Notes under the pieces: model-generated
What the model was told of the DNA's origin: nothing
Database searches by the model: none
Seen by the model: the letters and a program-made list of their open reading frames with translations, nothing else
NCBI RefSeq assembly: GCF_025152575.1
Contig: NZ_CP102293.1
Coordinates: 1,054,001-1,118,000, forward strand
Direction: 5' to 3'
DNA: 64,000 nt
Source: Subdoligranulum variabile
GTDB taxonomy: Bacteria; Bacillota; Clostridia; Oscillospirales; Ruminococcaceae
Program-made: the position numbers and the translations under genes
Part shown: positions 32,647 through 40,869 of the stretch, piece by piece
Numbering within the stretch: position 1 is the first letter of the stretch
Layout: the number at the start of each line of letters is the position of its first letter

Positions 32647-34554
32647 TCATCCGTTTTGGGCGGAGCCCGTGCCGAGATAGCTGTCCAGCTGGCTCTGGGC
32701 CTGCTCCAGGTTCCGGCGGGCAGCCTCCTCTCCGGCTTGCAGCGCCGGGTCGGTGGTGTTGCCGGCGGACTGGGCGGCTTCGATCTGCTGCTGAAGCTGG
32801 GACTGGGCGGACTGGGCAGACTCCTTGGCTTGTTCCTGCTGGGGCTGCAACATTTCGATTCTTTCCTGCCGCCACTGAATTTCGGCCTCGACGGACTGAA
32901 TCTGTTGTTCCAGCACACTGATCTGATCCCGGTATTGTTGCGCCAGGTCCTGCTCCTGGTCGGTGGTTCCGGCCGCCAGGTCGTCCACCAAAGCCTGTAG
33001 CTCGTCCTGTTTCTTCTGCAACTCTTCCTGCATGGACGGTAGCATTTCAATCCATGCCTGGCTTTCCCGGTCTTCCTGCTCCTGTACCACTTTGGCCGTA
33101 AGTGTCCGGGTATCCACCTCCTGGTAGGCTGTGAAATACCGGGGCTGGGCCGGGATACCGTTGCACAGCAGTTCGAAATGCAGGTGCGGGCCGGTGGAGT
33201 TGCCGGTGTTGCCCACATGGCCGATGAGCTCCCCCGCTTTGACCGTCTGGCCCTCTTCCACCGTGTAGTCGTCCATATGGCCGTACAAAGTGGTCCAGCG
33301 GTTGCCGTCCAGCCCGGTGCCGTGGTCCAGGACCACGCAGTTGCCATAACTGTACTGGTAATCGGCGTAGGTCACCACACCGTCCTGGGCCGCATAGACC
33401 GGGGTACCCTTGTCGGCGATCAGATCATCCCCCCGGTGAATGTTGTCCATGAACCGGCTGATATACGTATACTCCACCGGGCAGAGGAACCGCGGGCTGT
33501 TTTCGGGGTCGTTCAGGTTGGGCAGCCCCGCCGTGTTGGCCGTGAAGGTCACCGCCGTTTCGGGGGTGTCCGGGGTCTCGGCGGTGGCTTCCACCGGGAC
33601 CGGTTCGGCCGTCTCGGGGGTGGCTTCCTCCACCTGGGGCTGCATCATGCAGGCGGTGACGCTGAGCCCCACCGCCGCCGCACAGACCAGCAGCGCTCCC
33701 GCACCGATCCGGCGATAGTGCAGAAGATGCACGATACGTTTTTTGACGCTGCCCTGCCCGAAGGCCAGGGATCCCGGCGCCATCCGGCCCTGCAGGGCGT
33801 ACTGCAGGATGCTCTCGCAGTAGGCGTTGCGGGCGGCGGCATCGCAGCCGCGGACGGCCGCCTCGTCACAGGCGGATTCCATCTCCCGCTCCAACTGGCG
33901 GAAGGCCAGCCAGGCCAGGGGGTTGAACCAGTGCAGACAGACCACCGCATAGTAGAGCGGCTTGGTCTGGGGATCGTGGCGGCGCAGATGGGTGCGCTCG
34001 TGGAGCACCACCGCCTGCCGGGCCGCCCCCGTGAGGGCCGCGGGCAGGTAGATGCGCGGCCGGAAGATGCCCAGCGTAAAGGGCGCGGGCACGCAGCTGC
34101 CGCTGTAACAGCCGTCTTCCGTTTTGCAAGCCAGGGCCACCGTGCGGCGCAGCCGGACATACCCGGCTACCGCCCGCACCGCCAGCACCAGCACCCCCAC
34201 CGCCCAGACGGCGGCCAGCAGATGCCAGACCGTCAGCCGGGTATACCAGGGCGCCACGGCCGCTGCCGTCACCGCCGGGGCCTGCACCGCGGGCAGCACC
34301 ACCGGGGCGGGGCCTTCGGTCAGGGCCTGGACCGTGTCGGCGGCCTGGGCCAGATTTTCGTTCCGGGGCCGGGGCAGCGTCAGCGGGATGCCCCAGGGCA
34401 GGGCAAACCGCAGCCCCACCGCCAGCCACAGCCAGCAGAGCAGCCGGCTGGGGGTGTGCAGACGGCGCAGCACCGTGCTGACCGCCAGTGCTCCCAGCGT
34501 GGCCGCCCCGCCCCACAGGCTGAGCAGCAAAAAGCGGAGTACCAGTTCATCCAT
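32647..34554 (-). CDS. BlaR1-like M56 membrane metallopeptidase fused to M23 peptidase and coiled coil
   Basis: 635 residues. Residues 1-300 are a BlaR1/MecR1-type M56 domain: membrane helices near 5-28, 35-60, 108-132 and 284-301, with the gluzincin motif HERTH (185-189) and downstream EMESACDEA (224-232). After helix four comes LSVTAC (C302), which resembles a lipobox, then a Pro/Glu/Thr linker like that of lipoproteins in this window. Residues 350-480 are an M23/LytM endopeptidase with H373 and D377 (HRGDD), H426 (YGHMD) and H457/H459 (HLHFE). Residues 500-625 form a Gln/Glu-rich coiled coil. In BlaR1 the outer domain is normally a beta-lactam-binding one; here it is a wall hydrolase. It starts 3 bases after the BlaI-type gene. 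Confidence 0.9.
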   Translation of the reverse strand: MDELVLRFLLLSLWGGAATLGALAVSTVLRRLHTPSRLLCWLWLAVGLRFALPWGIPLTLPRPRNENLAQAADTVQALTEGPAPVVLPAVQAPAVTAAAVAPWYTRLTVWHLLAAVWAVGVLVLAVRAVAGYVRLRRTVALACKTEDGCYSGSCVPAPFTLGIFRPRIYLPAALTGAARQAVVLHERTHLRRHDPQTKPLYYAVVCLHWFNPLAWLAFRQLEREMESACDEAAVRGCDAAARNAYCESILQYALQGRMAPGSLAFGQGSVKKRIVHLLHYRRIGAGALLVCAAAVGLSVTACMMQPQVEEATPETAEPVPVEATAETPDTPETAVTFTANTAGLPNLNDPENSPRFLCPVEYTYISRFMDNIHRGDDLIADKGTPVYAAQDGVVTYADYQYSYGNCVVLDHGTGLDGNRWTTLYGHMDDYTVEEGQTVKAGELIGHVGNTGNSTGPHLHFELLCNGIPAQPRYFTAYQEVDTRTLTAKVVQEQEDRESQAWIEMLPSMQEELQKKQDELQALVDDLAAGTTDQEQDLAQQYRDQISVLEQQIQSVEAEIQWRQERIEMLQPQQEQAKESAQSAQSQLQQQIEAAQSAGNTTDPALQAGEEAARRNLEQAQSQLDSYLGTGSAQNG

Positions 34555-34557
34555 GGG

Positions 34558-34935
34558 TCACCCCTCCTTGTCGTGGGCGGCATCCAGCAGGGCACGGATC
34601 TCGGCCGCTTCGGCATCGCTGATGGGCTTGGCGCTCAAAAACGCCGCCACAAACCGCGGCAGACTCCCCCCGAAGGTCTTGTCCACCACGGCGGCACTCT
34701 CGGCACACTGGACGGCCTGCTTGGCCACCCGGCTGGTCACCGTGCCCCCTGCATTCTGCAGCACGCCCCGCTCGCAAAGTTTTTTCAGCACCGTGTAGGT
34801 GGTGCTCTTCTTCCAGCCCAGCGCCTCGGCCGCCAGCTTCACCAGTTCTCCGCTGGGCAGCGGCTCGTGGTCCCACACCAGGCAGGCAAAACGGTATTCC
34901 CCTTCCGCCAGACGCAGCGGTTCCTGTACAGACAT
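34558..34935 (-). CDS. BlaI/MecI/CopY-family repressor
   Basis: 125 residues from ATG 34935, chosen for its AAGGAGG; the frame continues upstream but without a start signal. The N-terminal winged helix (about 8-75) matches the Penicillinase-repressor family: WDHEPLPSGELVKLAAEALGWKKSTTYTVLKKLCERGVL. The C-terminal part (SDAEAAEIRALLDA) is the dimerisation helix. Such repressors are inactivated by proteolysis when the partner M56 protein is triggered from outside. The gene is followed after 3 bases by the M56-M23 fusion, so the pair should form an autoregulated signal unit. A dyad at its promoter fits binding. Confidence 0.92.
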   Translation of the reverse strand: MSVQEPLRLAEGEYRFACLVWDHEPLPSGELVKLAAEALGWKKSTTYTVLKKLCERGVLQNAGGTVTSRVAKQAVQCAESAAVVDKTFGGSLPRFVAAFLSAKPISDAEAAEIRALLDAAHDKEG

Positions 34936-34975
34936 GGTACTTCCTCCTTTCGATGGATGGTCTTTTTTCATTTTT

Positions 34976-35004
34976 AGTCTATCACAATAGACCGACTCTG
35001 TCAA
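34976..35004 (-). promoter_or_regulatory. promoter and predicted BlaI-type operator
   Basis: TTGACA (34999-35004), 17 bases and TAGACT (34976-34981) on the minus strand. The perfect dyad GTCTAT-N4-ATAGAC (34977-34992) overlaps the -10 and spacer, where a repressor would block RNA polymerase. Confidence 0.8.
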
Positions 35005-35036
35005 CAAAAAAACAGGGGCAAGTTCTTGTCCCTGTT
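35004..35036 (-). terminator. terminator of the MFS exporter gene
   Basis: AACAGGG-CAA stem (35011-35036) followed by TTTTTTT on the minus strand, directly past the stop codon at 35044. Confidence 0.85.
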
Positions 35037-35043
35037 GCATCGA

Positions 35044-36189
35044 TTATACCAGGTTGGTTTTCCGCCGCCAGTAGGCAAACAGTCCCAGGGCGCCCAGCCC
35101 CGCCGCGGTCCCGTAGCCGAAGGCCAGCCGCAGGTCCCACTGGGCCAGCGCACCGAAGGTCAGGTTGCTGCCGATGGCCACCGTATCCAGAATCATGGCA
35201 TGGATGCTCAGCGCGGTGGCACGGTTGGCGGTGTGCACCTGGCGGTTCTGCAGCTGGGCCTGGAAGGGCTGGAACAGACTGTCAGACACCCGCAGCAGCC
35301 AGATGCTCCCCACCGAGAGCACCGCCCGGTCGGTAAGAGCCAGCACGATGCAGGCCAGCGCCGGGGCCAGGGTGAAGAGCACCGCCGCCCGGCGGCCCCC
35401 GGTACGGCGGGTCACAGCGGAGGACCAGGTGCCGCAGAGCCCCAGCAGGGTGGCGGCGATGTAGACCCCGCCGATGGCGGTGCTGCCCATGCCGCAGCGC
35501 TCGTACTGCAGCTGGTTGAGAAAGACCGTGACGGTCTGGTGGACTTCGGTGAGCAGCCCCACCGCCAGCAGGAAAGCCAGCAGTCCCGGGGTGGTCAGGG
35601 TCGCCCGCAGGGTGGCGGCAAAGGGTTCCCGGGCCTCCTTCTTTTCGGGGGCGGGGTGGACCTCCACAAGGCCCAGGGAGAGCAGCGCCGCCGTCCCGTA
35701 GCTGAACACCGTGAGCAGGGCGGACAGGCGGTAATTTTCCCCGATGAAGAGGGTGTAAACCGCCGAGGCGGTGAGCAGCCCCGCCATGCCCAGACTGTTG
35801 TAAACGCCGAAGACATGCTGGCTGCGCTCCTGCCCGGCGCAGAGATAGAGGATGCTGGTATCCACCCCGGAGAACCCGGCGATGACCACGCTGAGCAGCA
35901 CCCGCTCGGCCAGGAAACCGCCGAAATCCGACGCCTGCCAGAAGATGATCTTGGACAGAAAATACACCCAGCAGCAGAAAATCATCGTGCGTTTGTAGCC
36001 GATGCGGTCCGCCACCACGCCCCAGGGCACCTCCAGGGCGATGCTCAGCGCAAAGGAGATACTCTCGATGAGGGTGATTTCAAAAATAGACACTCCCTGG
36101 GCCTGCCGGTACAGGGTGGAGATGGCGCCGTAAAACACCATGCCCTGCAGAAAGGTCATGGCATAGAGCAGATAGATATTGCGTTTCAC
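35044..36189 (-). CDS. MFS transporter, probable drug exporter under leader-peptide control
   Basis: 381 residues from GTG 36189, with AAAGGA 10 bases upstream; a TTG seven codons earlier would sit on the ribosome binding site. Twelve hydrophobic segments fit a complete major facilitator. Between helices 2 and 3 lies EVPWGVVADRIGYKRTMIF, the MFS motif A (G-x-x-x-D-R-x-G-x-K/R). The substrate is not predictable by sequence, but the 135-base leader with a five-codon peptide and RBS-sequestering hairpin is the arrangement of ribosome-targeting-antibiotic resistance genes, which suggests antibiotic efflux. It is followed by a terminator and preceded by its own promoter, which overlaps the arsC stop codon. 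Confidence 0.88.
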   Translation of the reverse strand: MKRNIYLLYAMTFLQGMVFYGAISTLYRQAQGVSIFEITLIESISFALSIALEVPWGVVADRIGYKRTMIFCCWVYFLSKIIFWQASDFGGFLAERVLLSVVIAGFSGVDTSILYLCAGQERSQHVFGVYNSLGMAGLLTASAVYTLFIGENYRLSALLTVFSYGTAALLSLGLVEVHPAPEKKEAREPFAATLRATLTTPGLLAFLLAVGLLTEVHQTVTVFLNQLQYERCGMGSTAIGGVYIAATLLGLCGTWSSAVTRRTGGRRAAVLFTLAPALACIVLALTDRAVLSVGSIWLLRVSDSLFQPFQAQLQNRQVHTANRATALSIHAMILDTVAIGSNLTFGALAQWDLRLAFGYGTAAGLGALGLFAYWRRKTNLV

Positions 36190-36195
36190 GAAAAA

Positions 36196-36290
36196 ATCGT
36201 CCTTTCCCAAAGATTCCTTTTCCGCACGGCAAACAGGCGCCGGGCTCCGGCGCCTTGGGTGCGGTATGGAAATCTTTTAGATAGGACGAT
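36196..36290 (-). promoter_or_regulatory. nested leader hairpin sequestering the MFS ribosome binding site (candidate attenuator)
   Basis: Four helices nest exactly: ATCGTCCT (5' side, plus-strand 36283-36290) with AGGACGAT (36196-36203), then AAAGATT/AATCTTT plus GG/CC, then CCGCAC/GTGCGG, then a 9-bp AGGCGCCGG/CCGGCGCCT apical stem with a 3-base loop. The outer 3' strand contains the AAGGA of the MFS gene; the outer 5' strand lies inside the MHRPI leader ORF. The 3' side is followed by TTTTTT, so premature termination is also possible. Confidence 0.8.
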
Positions 36291-36294
36291 GCAT
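36277..36294 (-). CDS. five-codon leader peptide MHRPI
   Basis: ATG CAT CGT CCT ATC TAA on the minus strand, preceded by AAGGCAGG at 8 bases. A ribosome translating or stalled here would cover the strand that otherwise pairs with the downstream ribosome binding site. The size, position and overlap with the hairpin are the evidence; it is too short for homology. Confidence 0.65.
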   Translation of the reverse strand: MHRPI

Positions 36295-36331
36295 TGCAGT
36301 TGCCTGCCTTGTGTTATTCTGGAATGAATCC

Positions 36332-36360
36332 AGTATAACACGCCCCGAGGTTGGCGTCAA
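36332..36360 (-). promoter_or_regulatory. promoter of the leader-controlled MFS gene
   Basis: TTGACG (36355-36360), 17 bases and TATACT (36332-36337) on the minus strand. The start near 36325 gives a 5' UTR of about 135 bases. Confidence 0.8.
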
Positions 36361-39635: not shown

Positions 39636-40397
39636 TTATTCCTCGTGATGGCTGCCCCCGTGGTGGCCGTTCCCCTGTTGGGGGGCAGGATTTTCGCAGC
39701 TTGCCGGGGTTTCGGCCGTGCTCTGGGTGGTCCCATCGCCCGAAAGCGCTGCGATGCGGTCGCGGATCTCCCGCATGGTCATGCCCTGCACCGCTTCCGG
39801 CGTGACGGAGGGGTCCAGCGCCGCCAGCTCCTGATAGGCCCGGTATTTGCCGTAGGAAAGCCCGCAGTCGTGGGCCTGTTCCACCTCCTCAGTACCGGCC
39901 CGGTAGCAGTGGGCGTTCTGCTGCCCGTCGGTGCAGGCCTGCACCCCCGCCAGCAGCCGTTCACAGTGGGTGTCGTCGTCCCCGATGACCCCGATCTCCA
40001 CCACGGCGTCCTGCCCCAGCAGTGTTTCGATGGTGTCGGTGGCGAGGATGGTCTCCACCGCGTCGGTGTAGGAGAGGTTGGTCACCTCCACCGTTTCGGC
40101 CAGGGCGGTGCCGTCGTCGTTCCAGCCCTGCACCGAGATCACCCGGTCGAACCGGTTGACCCCCAGCTCCAGGGAGGGATTGATGTCGATGCTGATGTGG
40201 GCCGTGGGGGTGAAGTAGAGCCACCGGCCGCCCAGCACCACCACCGCCGCACAGGCTGCCGTGGCCAGGGCCAGACCCACCGGCCGGGCCGGGCTGTGAC
40301 GCTGCCGTACCCGCCGGGCCACCGCGGCACGGGCCGCCGCCTTCAGTTCCGGTTCGGCGTGGACGCTGTCAAATGCAGCGCGCAGTTCCTCATGCAT
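39636..40397 (-). CDS. RsgI-like anti-sigma factor membrane protein
   Basis: 253 residues from ATG 40397 (GGGAGG 8 bases upstream). A short cytoplasmic N-terminus (1-38) precedes one membrane helix (about 39-61), then HISIDINPSLELGVNRFDRVISVQGWNDDG (67-96), the hallmark of the RsgI extracellular domain, which in clostridial homologues undergoes self-cleavage between Asn and Pro. The C-terminal tail is rich in Gly and His (GNGHHGGSHHEE), a possible metal-binding end. It overlaps the sigma gene stop by about 8 bases, so they are co-translated. It should bind the sigma factor on the inside and respond to an outside cue. Confidence 0.85.
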   Translation of the reverse strand: MHEELRAAFDSVHAEPELKAAARAAVARRVRQRHSPARPVGLALATAACAAVVVLGGRWLYFTPTAHISIDINPSLELGVNRFDRVISVQGWNDDGTALAETVEVTNLSYTDAVETILATDTIETLLGQDAVVEIGVIGDDDTHCERLLAGVQACTDGQQNAHCYRAGTEEVEQAHDCGLSYGKYRAYQELAALDPSVTPEAVQGMTMREIRDRIAALSGDGTTQSTAETPASCENPAPQQGNGHHGGSHHEE

Positions 40398-40869
40398 CGT
40401 CGTCACCTCCCAGCGCCTGACGCAGCAGCCCGCGGGCGCGGGTCAGCCGTGTGTAGACGGTATTCACGTTCTTGCCCAGGATCTGTGCGATCTCGGGGGC
40501 GGTGTAGCCTTCGTAGTAGTGCAGATACACCACGTCCCGGTAGGCCGCGGGCAGCCCCTGCACCGCCTGCAGCACCGCCCGGTGTTCCTCCGGCGGGGCG
40601 GACAGTTCCGCGGCTTCGTCCAGCGGCACGGTACGCCGCCGGAACACGCTGCGCAAAAGGTCCTTGCACGCGTTGATGGTCACCCGGATGATCCAGGCCT
40701 TCTCATGTTCGGGGGAGGCAAAGGGCGCCGTGTGCAGCAGGTATTTCACGAACACCGTCTGGAAGATGTCCTCGGTGTCCGCGTAGTTTTTCAGGTGCAC
40801 CAGGCAGATGCGCCGCACGGTGTCGGCATACCGCTCCACCGCCCGGTTGACCTCTTGTTCGCTGCGCAT
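40390..40869 (-). CDS. ECF-type RNA polymerase sigma factor
   Basis: 159 residues. Region 2 is visible at about 10-75 (ADTEDIFQTVFVKYLL, then EKAWIIRVTINACKDLLRS) and region 4 at about 100-155 (LPAAYRDVVYLHYYEGYTAPEIAQILGKNVNTVYTRLTRARGLLRQAL). No region 3 or 1.1, so it belongs to the extracytoplasmic-function group. GGGGGAG precedes ATG 40869. It is encoded between a small secreted DxDGDGVCD-repeat protein and the RsgI-like anti-sigma factor, all in one operon from a housekeeping-type promoter at 41309-41337. Its own target promoters are not identifiable here. Confidence 0.93.
   Translation of the reverse strand: MRSEQEVNRAVERYADTVRRICLVHLKNYADTEDIFQTVFVKYLLHTAPFASPEHEKAWIIRVTINACKDLLRSVFRRRTVPLDEAAELSAPPEEHRAVLQAVQGLPAAYRDVVYLHYYEGYTAPEIAQILGKNVNTVYTRLTRARGLLRQALGGDDDA

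Follow-up and report, generated by a model that had tools for sequence, protein, structure and literature searches.

The window analysed here, a stretch of 64,000 nucleotides, carries on its minus strand a gene for an MFS transporter that is preceded by a short leader with a five-codon open reading frame. The leader has a promoter-like site of its own, which overlaps the stop codon (36359-36357) of an arsC-like gene at the end of an arsenic-type operon. The features of the locus are as follows.

38475-36357, minus strand: arsenic-type operon encoding ArsR, an ArsP-type permease, an ArsE-like thioredoxin and an ArsC-like LMWPc protein
36360-36332, minus strand: predicted sigma-A promoter, TTGACG-17-TATACT with TG before the -10 (promoter scan, 10/12)
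36310-36303, minus strand: SD-like AAGGCAGG of the leader ORF (sequence)
36294-36277, minus strand: leader ORF ATGCATCGTCCTATCTAA, ATG CAT CGT CCT ATC TAA, peptide MHRPI* (sequence)
36290-36283, minus strand: 5′ arm of the outer helix P1, AUCGUCCU, codons 2-4, predicted anti-SD (fold and covariation)
36281-36279 with 36207-36205 and 36277-36269 with 36217-36209, minus strand: inner helix P2 (fold)
36264-36259 with 36227-36222, minus strand: inner helix P3 (fold)
36257-36247 with 36243-36235 and 36231-36230, minus strand: apical helix (fold)
36255-36235, minus strand: apical G+C-rich hairpin AGGCGCCGG-AGC-CCGGCGCCT (fold)
36236-36226, minus strand: pause-like element CTGTTTGCCGT with G at 36225 as its next base, placed like the NusG motif -11TTNTTT-6
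36205-36200, minus strand: MFS ribosome binding site AAAGGA (sequence)
36203-36196, minus strand: 3′ arm of P1, AGGACGAU, which includes AGGA from this ribosome binding site (fold)
36196-36191, minus strand: U6 run directly after P1, possible terminator tract (sequence)
36189-35044, minus strand: MFS transporter gene with a GTG start at 36189, 381 aa (PF07690, 3e-23)

The window leader is predicted to fold with a minimum free energy of -52.5 kcal/mol (z -5.41; equally stable shuffles 0/200), and MFE and centroid structures agree on one nested hairpin. Its outer helix P1 comprises 8 bp and joins codons 2-4 of MHRPI to the SD arm of the MFS gene, which runs directly into the U6. A first-pass annotation, made from the letters alone, had described the five-codon ORF with codons 2-4 in the 5′ strand of an 8-bp helix, the SD of the exporter gene held by the 3′ strand, and three further helices nested inside; the fold confirms all of this. 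Because of the promoter-like site at 36360-36332, we predict that transcription starts near 36325, giving a leader of about 136 nt with the ORF inside. The predicted promoter lies upstream of the ORF; signs of a start downstream of 36277, which would speak against the annotation, were looked for and not found. Promoter hexamers are also visible by eye in four related loci (L003, L032, L033, L040). An imperfect palindrome of 29 nt over the leader -10, TGTTATaCTGGAttcatTCCAGaATAACA (36340-36312, minus strand), was considered as an operator; it is weaker in L003 and L032 and is not a general part of the arrangement. At gathering score, Rfam returned only one tRNA in the window and no match to the MFS leader, and the four matches in the loci of 10 relatives were all under gathering score.

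We collected relatives of the MFS gene from whole genomes of the family, the order and the genus and from named contigs. With tblastn at E <= 1e-30, 46 loci were obtained, of which 41 were kept, the window included; one gene end piece (L050) and four duplicates (L051, L052, L053, L056) were left out. Ten weaker MFS loci (L022-L031) stand outside the leader counts, and the leader was absent from the six of them that we inspected by eye. A wider set of 11 loci, from two plasmid records and nine genomes, gave nine assignable leaders, with no clear leader at L084 and L088. In total, 50 leaders were assigned at 52 Clostridia MFS loci. The MFS proteins behind them, the window's own excepted, share 32-94% identity with that of the window. 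The gene is patchy: it occurs in 9/35 genomes of the genus and in 12/394 genomes of the order (E <= 1e-40), and 4 of 72,556 plasmid records, one from Roseburia and three from Paraclostridium, have a match.

The leader ORF is strongly conserved in length and at its end. Exactly five codons are found in 34 of the 41 leaders, and the last two residues are PI in 22, PT in 5, PV in 4, LH in 3 and PH in 2, with five other pairs once each. Examples are MNRPI, MYRPI, MHSPI, MCSPI, MHFPI, MNCPI, MSCPI, MGSPI, MNRPH, MKSPT and MDRPV. A fixed pattern of 5-8 codons with penultimate Pro and I, V, T or H as last residue describes 32/41 leaders, compared to a mean of 0.32 and a maximum of 3 in 100 dinucleotide-shuffle sets; no peptides picked by eye enter this test. 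Counted over the main and wider sets, the penultimate residue is Pro in 42/50 and the last is I, V, T or H in 46/50, figures for which atypical peptides (for example L018 with TTG, L020 and L021) were picked by eye from ORF lists, a choice that favours agreement. An SD-like 4-mer precedes the ORF in 35/41. The wider set contributes MNRPI on the Roseburia plasmid, MYCPI, MRKPI, MMYLFIFSNPI, MSVFMSLLNNPT and MNNHSISNLNNPT, together with the divergent peptides MMVDI, MADI and MIYICTP, so the arrangement extends to a Roseburia plasmid and to other Clostridia. Codon 2, the lengths and the inner helices vary while the in-frame ORF persists. The leader is real and conserved, beyond chance. The stop codons of the main set (TAA 16, TGA 25, TAG 0) had suggested RF2-specific stalling, an idea that we dropped: TAG ends three of the nine wider leaders (L085, L090, L101), and the TAG background is 22/134 ORFs. 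This background, used for the T5 runs below as well, consists of 134 ORFs of the same loci with mechanical starts, MFS genes included.

The pairing of the ORF with the SD region is widespread as well. In 38/41 MFE structures, four or more bases of the ORF pair with the 24 nt that precede the MFS start; those of L015, L019 and L049 do not pair the ORF there. RNAalifold on a MAFFT alignment of 25 leaders (A1) did not recover the outer helix, only the apical hairpin, and in a realignment of 22 leaders (A2) the SD was still one column off in one group. Because both alignments were unsatisfactory, we tested the outer helix in fixed register with permutations, in which the SD was set by a fixed rule, the ORF arm by the penultimate codon, and arms were exchanged between species as the null. 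L018 and L048 have no RGG under the fixed SD rule, so that this test and the SD-exposure model cover 39 leaders. For 32 distinct arm pairs we found Watson-Crick pairs at 90/160 positions adjoining the SD, versus 66.1 +/- 4.6 (0/20,000 permutations). With a single leader kept from each 70% MFS cluster, the count is 54/110 versus 41.8 (14/20,000), and with one from each 60% cluster it is 42/70 versus 31.2 (41/20,000). The ORF arm and the SD arm co-vary, more weakly after relatives are thinned; L012 is a weak case within the main set. Lack of conservation of short ORF and outer helix in orthologous leaders, which would have refuted the first-pass annotation, was thus looked for and not found; both are conserved, with covariation. 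In more distant MFS relatives (L086, L087, L089, L090) a GGAGGTG SD is masked, in a variant layout, by TACACC or TATACC situated at or past the end of the leader ORF; the peptides there are MRKPI, MMVDI, MIYICTP and MADI.

We then modelled a ribosome as a mask of 31 nt, placed either at codon 1 or at the last codon. In free RNA the SD has a mean P(unpaired) <0.5 in 36/39 leaders, and the median changes from 0.29 to 0.54 under the codon-1 mask and to 0.49 under the stop mask. For the window leader (L002) the values are 0.15 in free RNA, 0.53 with codon 1 masked and 0.41 with the stop masked. The modelled gain is moderate, being >0.3 in 19/39 leaders (codon 1) and 13/39 (stop), and exposure drops under the stop mask in L006, L010, L014, L019, L054 and L055 and under the codon-1 mask in eight leaders. 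A ribosome-gated opening of the SD or of a U-run terminator, as proposed from the first inspection, is supported by the conserved ORF, the covariation of P1 and the modelled SD exposure.

Looking at the 16 nt upstream of the MFS start, we found a run of T5 in 24/41 leaders, versus 6/134 among the mechanical ORFs described above. That background, which also contains MFS genes, is probably too low owing to its imperfect starts; in the ORF list of the window, T5 precedes the start in 0/43. Leaders such as L035-L039 are without T5. Thus, of the two targets offered in the annotation, SD masking is the general part, and termination would be an addition in a majority of the leaders. A terminator scan with loops restricted to 3-8 did not list the U6 hairpin.

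Between the two arms stands an apical hairpin, usually G+C-rich and often followed by (Y)TGTTTGYYGTG, a conserved pause-like element that was absent from the first reading of the locus. Among 35 thinned leaders, the core TTGYYRTG is present in 17 (0.9 +/- 0.9 in shuffles), YTGTTT in 17 (3.3 in shuffles) and the exact TTNTTT in 12 (5.4 in shuffles); the CTGTTT of the window has 4 of the 5 T of TTNTTT. RNAalifold on A1 gave five pairs only, all at the apical hairpin, three of them with changes on both sides. At the place of N81-T82 in the closest PDB match (counted on the alignment), a chain that we take to be B. subtilis NusG, the NusG of the organism has VRNT; two other listed chains have VRSV there. 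In excerpts of PMC12288461, TTNTTT at -11 to -6 is the NusG pause consensus and N81/T82 of the B. subtilis protein are its readers, where E. coli has S85 and V86. The combination of apical hairpin and YTGTTTGYYGTG-like element is similar to NusG pause sites, and we infer that RNA polymerase may pause after the hairpin.

The conserved mini-ORF, usually with a P-[I/T/V]-stop end, is the 5′ arm of the predicted SD-masking hairpin, and we consider the MFS leader very probably a translated-leader attenuator. RNA polymerase would pause past the apical hairpin and so leave time for a ribosome to load on the mini-ORF. If this ribosome finished and left, the 5′ arm would become free, the long hairpin would close and the SD would be hidden; where a U-run is present, the closed hairpin would also stop transcription. 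If the ribosome lingered, it would cover the 5′ arm and hold the hairpin open, and the MFS mRNA could be completed and translated. The stall would probably be brought about at the moment when the stop codon reaches the A site, by a ribosome-directed compound and the nascent P-I end acting together. The MFS protein would probably remove this compound. Taken as a whole, a ribosome-mediated attenuator that controls the MFS gene, with a ribosome-directed compound as probable inducer, is the best explanation and a likely one. That the inducer is a ribosome-directed compound we hold, as a point of its own, to be reasonably probable. Arrest at the stop codon in a peptide-specific manner is a tentative proposal, possible and somewhat doubtful.

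The last point depends on whether the peptide or the RNA is under selection. It is conceivable, if on the unlikely side, that the mini-ORF is a pairing element and a generic uORF, in which the Pro codon serves as the complement of the SD and the identity of the peptide is irrelevant. Any slow or initiating ribosome, be it through drug, starvation or cold, would then open the hairpin. Indeed, 36 of the 42 Pro leaders have a Pro codon whose pairing with the SD zone (20 nt, -24 to -5) is >0.5, so that RNA pairing alone could conserve most of the Pro, and in the model a ribosome on codon 1 already frees the SD (median 0.54). Excerpts of PMC10201436 additionally describe drug stalling on short uORFs like that of cplR with little context-specificity. 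However, five leaders (L015, L085, L086, L101, L102) retain the penultimate Pro with a pairing of its codon to the SD zone of only 0.00-0.24, and their ORFs still end in P-I or P-T. The restriction of the last residue to I, V, T or H in 46/50 also speaks against pure pairing: its codon begins with a base that is unpaired in most leaders (31/41) and yet is A in 30/41. The Pro leaders range from 5 to 13 residues in total length with a constant C-terminal end. Among the eight leaders without penultimate Pro, six (L018, L019, L048, L049, L087, L090) are also without pairing, and L014 and L089 keep it. The pattern is suggestive of selection on the peptide end, and hence of a ribosome stopped at the last or the stop codon.

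Amino-acid attenuation is very improbable; here a lack of charged tRNA for Pro or Ile would halt the ribosome and so switch on a transporter for amino acids or peptides. One Pro and one Ile, Thr or Val codon do end most leaders, but they are single codons, in contrast to the runs of control codons that classical amino-acid leaders carry; the last residue moreover changes among I, T, V and H, and some leaders have Leu in place of Pro. We give just as little credit to a plain regulatory hairpin (a protein-binding RNA, a riboswitch or a thermosensor) over a fortuitous ORF. Such a hairpin would fit the very stable nested structure, but not the in-frame ORF that is kept although codon 2, the lengths and the inner helices vary, and no Rfam family was found at gathering score in the window or at the 10 loci. 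Least probable of all is that the MFS gene simply belongs to the upstream arsenic operon: genes for ArsR, an ArsP-type permease, an ArsE-like thioredoxin and an ArsC-like protein lie upstream on the same strand, and similar arsC-end sequence is seen by eye upstream of the leader in L003, L032, L033 and L040, but this is absent (by eye) from L034, L054 and L055, the leader occurs elsewhere beside another neighbour, such as an LCP-family gene in Roseburia, and it has its own promoter-like site.

A translated-leader attenuator would join a well-known kind of control. In the attenuators of cat-86, cmlA and ermC, a ribosome binding site that is normally masked becomes accessible once a ribosome stalls on the leader ORF; cmlA itself encodes an MFS exporter. 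These leaders are longer and have other sequences, and those of erm genes form switching hairpins. The logic of erm, cat and ABC-F resistance genes, to which the locus had been assigned at first sight, is supported as far as attenuation is concerned; the layout, however, is one nested hairpin and is closer to the cat type or cplR than to erm with its switching hairpins. The first-pass annotation is correct in its observations and probably so in its logic. The ermC translational attenuator is also found in excerpts of PMC10219788.

The closest known systems are cplR, vmlR and msrDL, which we compare here from excerpts of the respective papers. The ARE-ABCF gene cplR of Clostridioides difficile, for which induction was demonstrated, has a very short uORF (MRI), a terminator stem with poly-U that contains the SD of its main gene, and combined transcriptional and translational attenuation (PMC10201436). 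It differs in its three codons, MR[I/M], in the separate 5′ hairpin that carries the uORF and in its ABCF main gene (PMC10201436). The uORF consensuses MR[I/M], MIN, MK[L/Q] and MAGN given in the same source are unlike M-x-x-P-I (PMC10201436). For vmlR of B. subtilis, the likeness extends to a short uORF (MIN), a pause hairpin with a T-rich motif that is NusG-dependent, an SD-sequestering hairpin and attenuation of both transcription and translation; its anti-antiterminator and antiterminator structures differ from the one nested hairpin predicted here (PMC9226507). The msrDL leader of msrD (MYLIFM) has six residues, is arrested by macrolides at the stop codon and has a noted TTNTTT pause motif (PMC10314930). 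Its peptide is hydrophobic and the macrolide is shown (PMC10314930), unlike the P-[I/T/V]-stop and the MFS gene of our leader. Finally, in Listeria a drug-stalled ribosome on a uORF turns on the resistance gene hflXr; the rli80 uORF is longer, 14 residues with RLR, and the control is transcription attenuation with alternative structures (PMC6310831). The excerpt of PMC11109978 gives eight uORF candidates and does not mention MFS. In the literature searched, with subscription journals mostly outside it, we found no report of the MFS leader.

The AlphaFold2 model of the MFS protein has a mean pLDDT of 86.5, and the nearest PDB folds include VMAT2, MFSD10, NorA and LmrP (ranks 1-6), as well as YajR. 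Since LacY and FucP are also among the matching folds, drug export by the protein is plausible only. A search by sequence for solved relatives gave none at E 0.01, and motif C, the antiporter motif, is not evident by eye.

The overall kind of control is thus already known, whereas the end of the leader peptide was not found described, and the attenuator precedes an uncharacterised transporter family in gut Clostridia. We would go one step further, with slightly more reserve than for peptide-specific arrest itself, and propose that P-[I/T/V]-stop may be a new termination-anchored nascent-chain arrest signal. The length of the N-terminal part (5-13) would be irrelevant, and the signal would sense a ribosome-directed compound and switch on a dedicated MFS pump via pause, terminator and SD-masking hairpin. 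If this is true, the compound sensed would be one that gut Clostridia meet. The attenuator reading predicts, in the gut commensals Gemmiger, other Oscillospirales and Roseburia, an inducible transporter family with its own sensor, and the leader could serve as a probe to find the compound that induces it. With P-[I/T/V]-stop at the C-terminus, the leader peptide also offers a testable candidate for a new kind of ribosome arrest, context-specific and acting at termination.

We searched for the element elsewhere with a covariance model (R1), which was built from the MFS leaders, has 5 base pairs and is mostly a sequence profile. Its reach is limited: at E <= 1 it finds 14 of 21 loci outside the training set and misses L021, L022, L023, L024, L026, L027 and L049. 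In 294 genomes of the family we obtained 25 matches at E <= 0.1; 12 of these, the best ten included, precede this MFS gene. The other 13 have E 0.008-0.09, where chance would give about 29, and 11 of them resemble hairpins or terminators of an unrelated kind. For the order, 295 genomes gave nine matches (E <= 0.02), of which seven lie at this MFS gene and one (L097) at an unrelated gene. In the ninth, L098 (G414), an MNSPT leader precedes an MFS copy that by eye seems broken; relatives have intact copies. Over the 294 and 295 genomes, every match at E below 2e-4 lies at this MFS gene. The two remaining matches of the family search are an exception: at L073 and L074 (G191 and G248, one genus; minus strand, 1615-1501), an MNSPI* mini-ORF follows the stop of the upstream gene and precedes a YabP-family gene (PF07873 in L073). 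A small hairpin in L073, UCC-CAUC/GAUG-A-GGA, spans the yabP SD (z -2.0), and the apical hairpin is missing from this leader. This may be a leader of the same type in front of a sporulation gene, or a chance match.

Several neighbours in the window are worth recording. A promoter-like site of the arsenic-type operon (38529-38501) adjoins the palindrome ATCAAGAAATTTTGAT. On the far side of the MFS gene, a BlaI-type repressor (34558-35040, minus strand) is followed by a 635-aa protein (32647-34554, minus strand), in which a BlaR1-type M56 domain (8-275) is joined to an M23 peptidase domain (372-471). The window also holds a phage terminase large subunit (PF04466; 30601-31845, plus strand), a gene of the choloylglycine hydrolase family (PF02275; 38561-39592, plus strand) and an ECF-type sigma factor (40390-40869) beside an RsgI-like anti-sigma factor (39636-40406), both on the minus strand.
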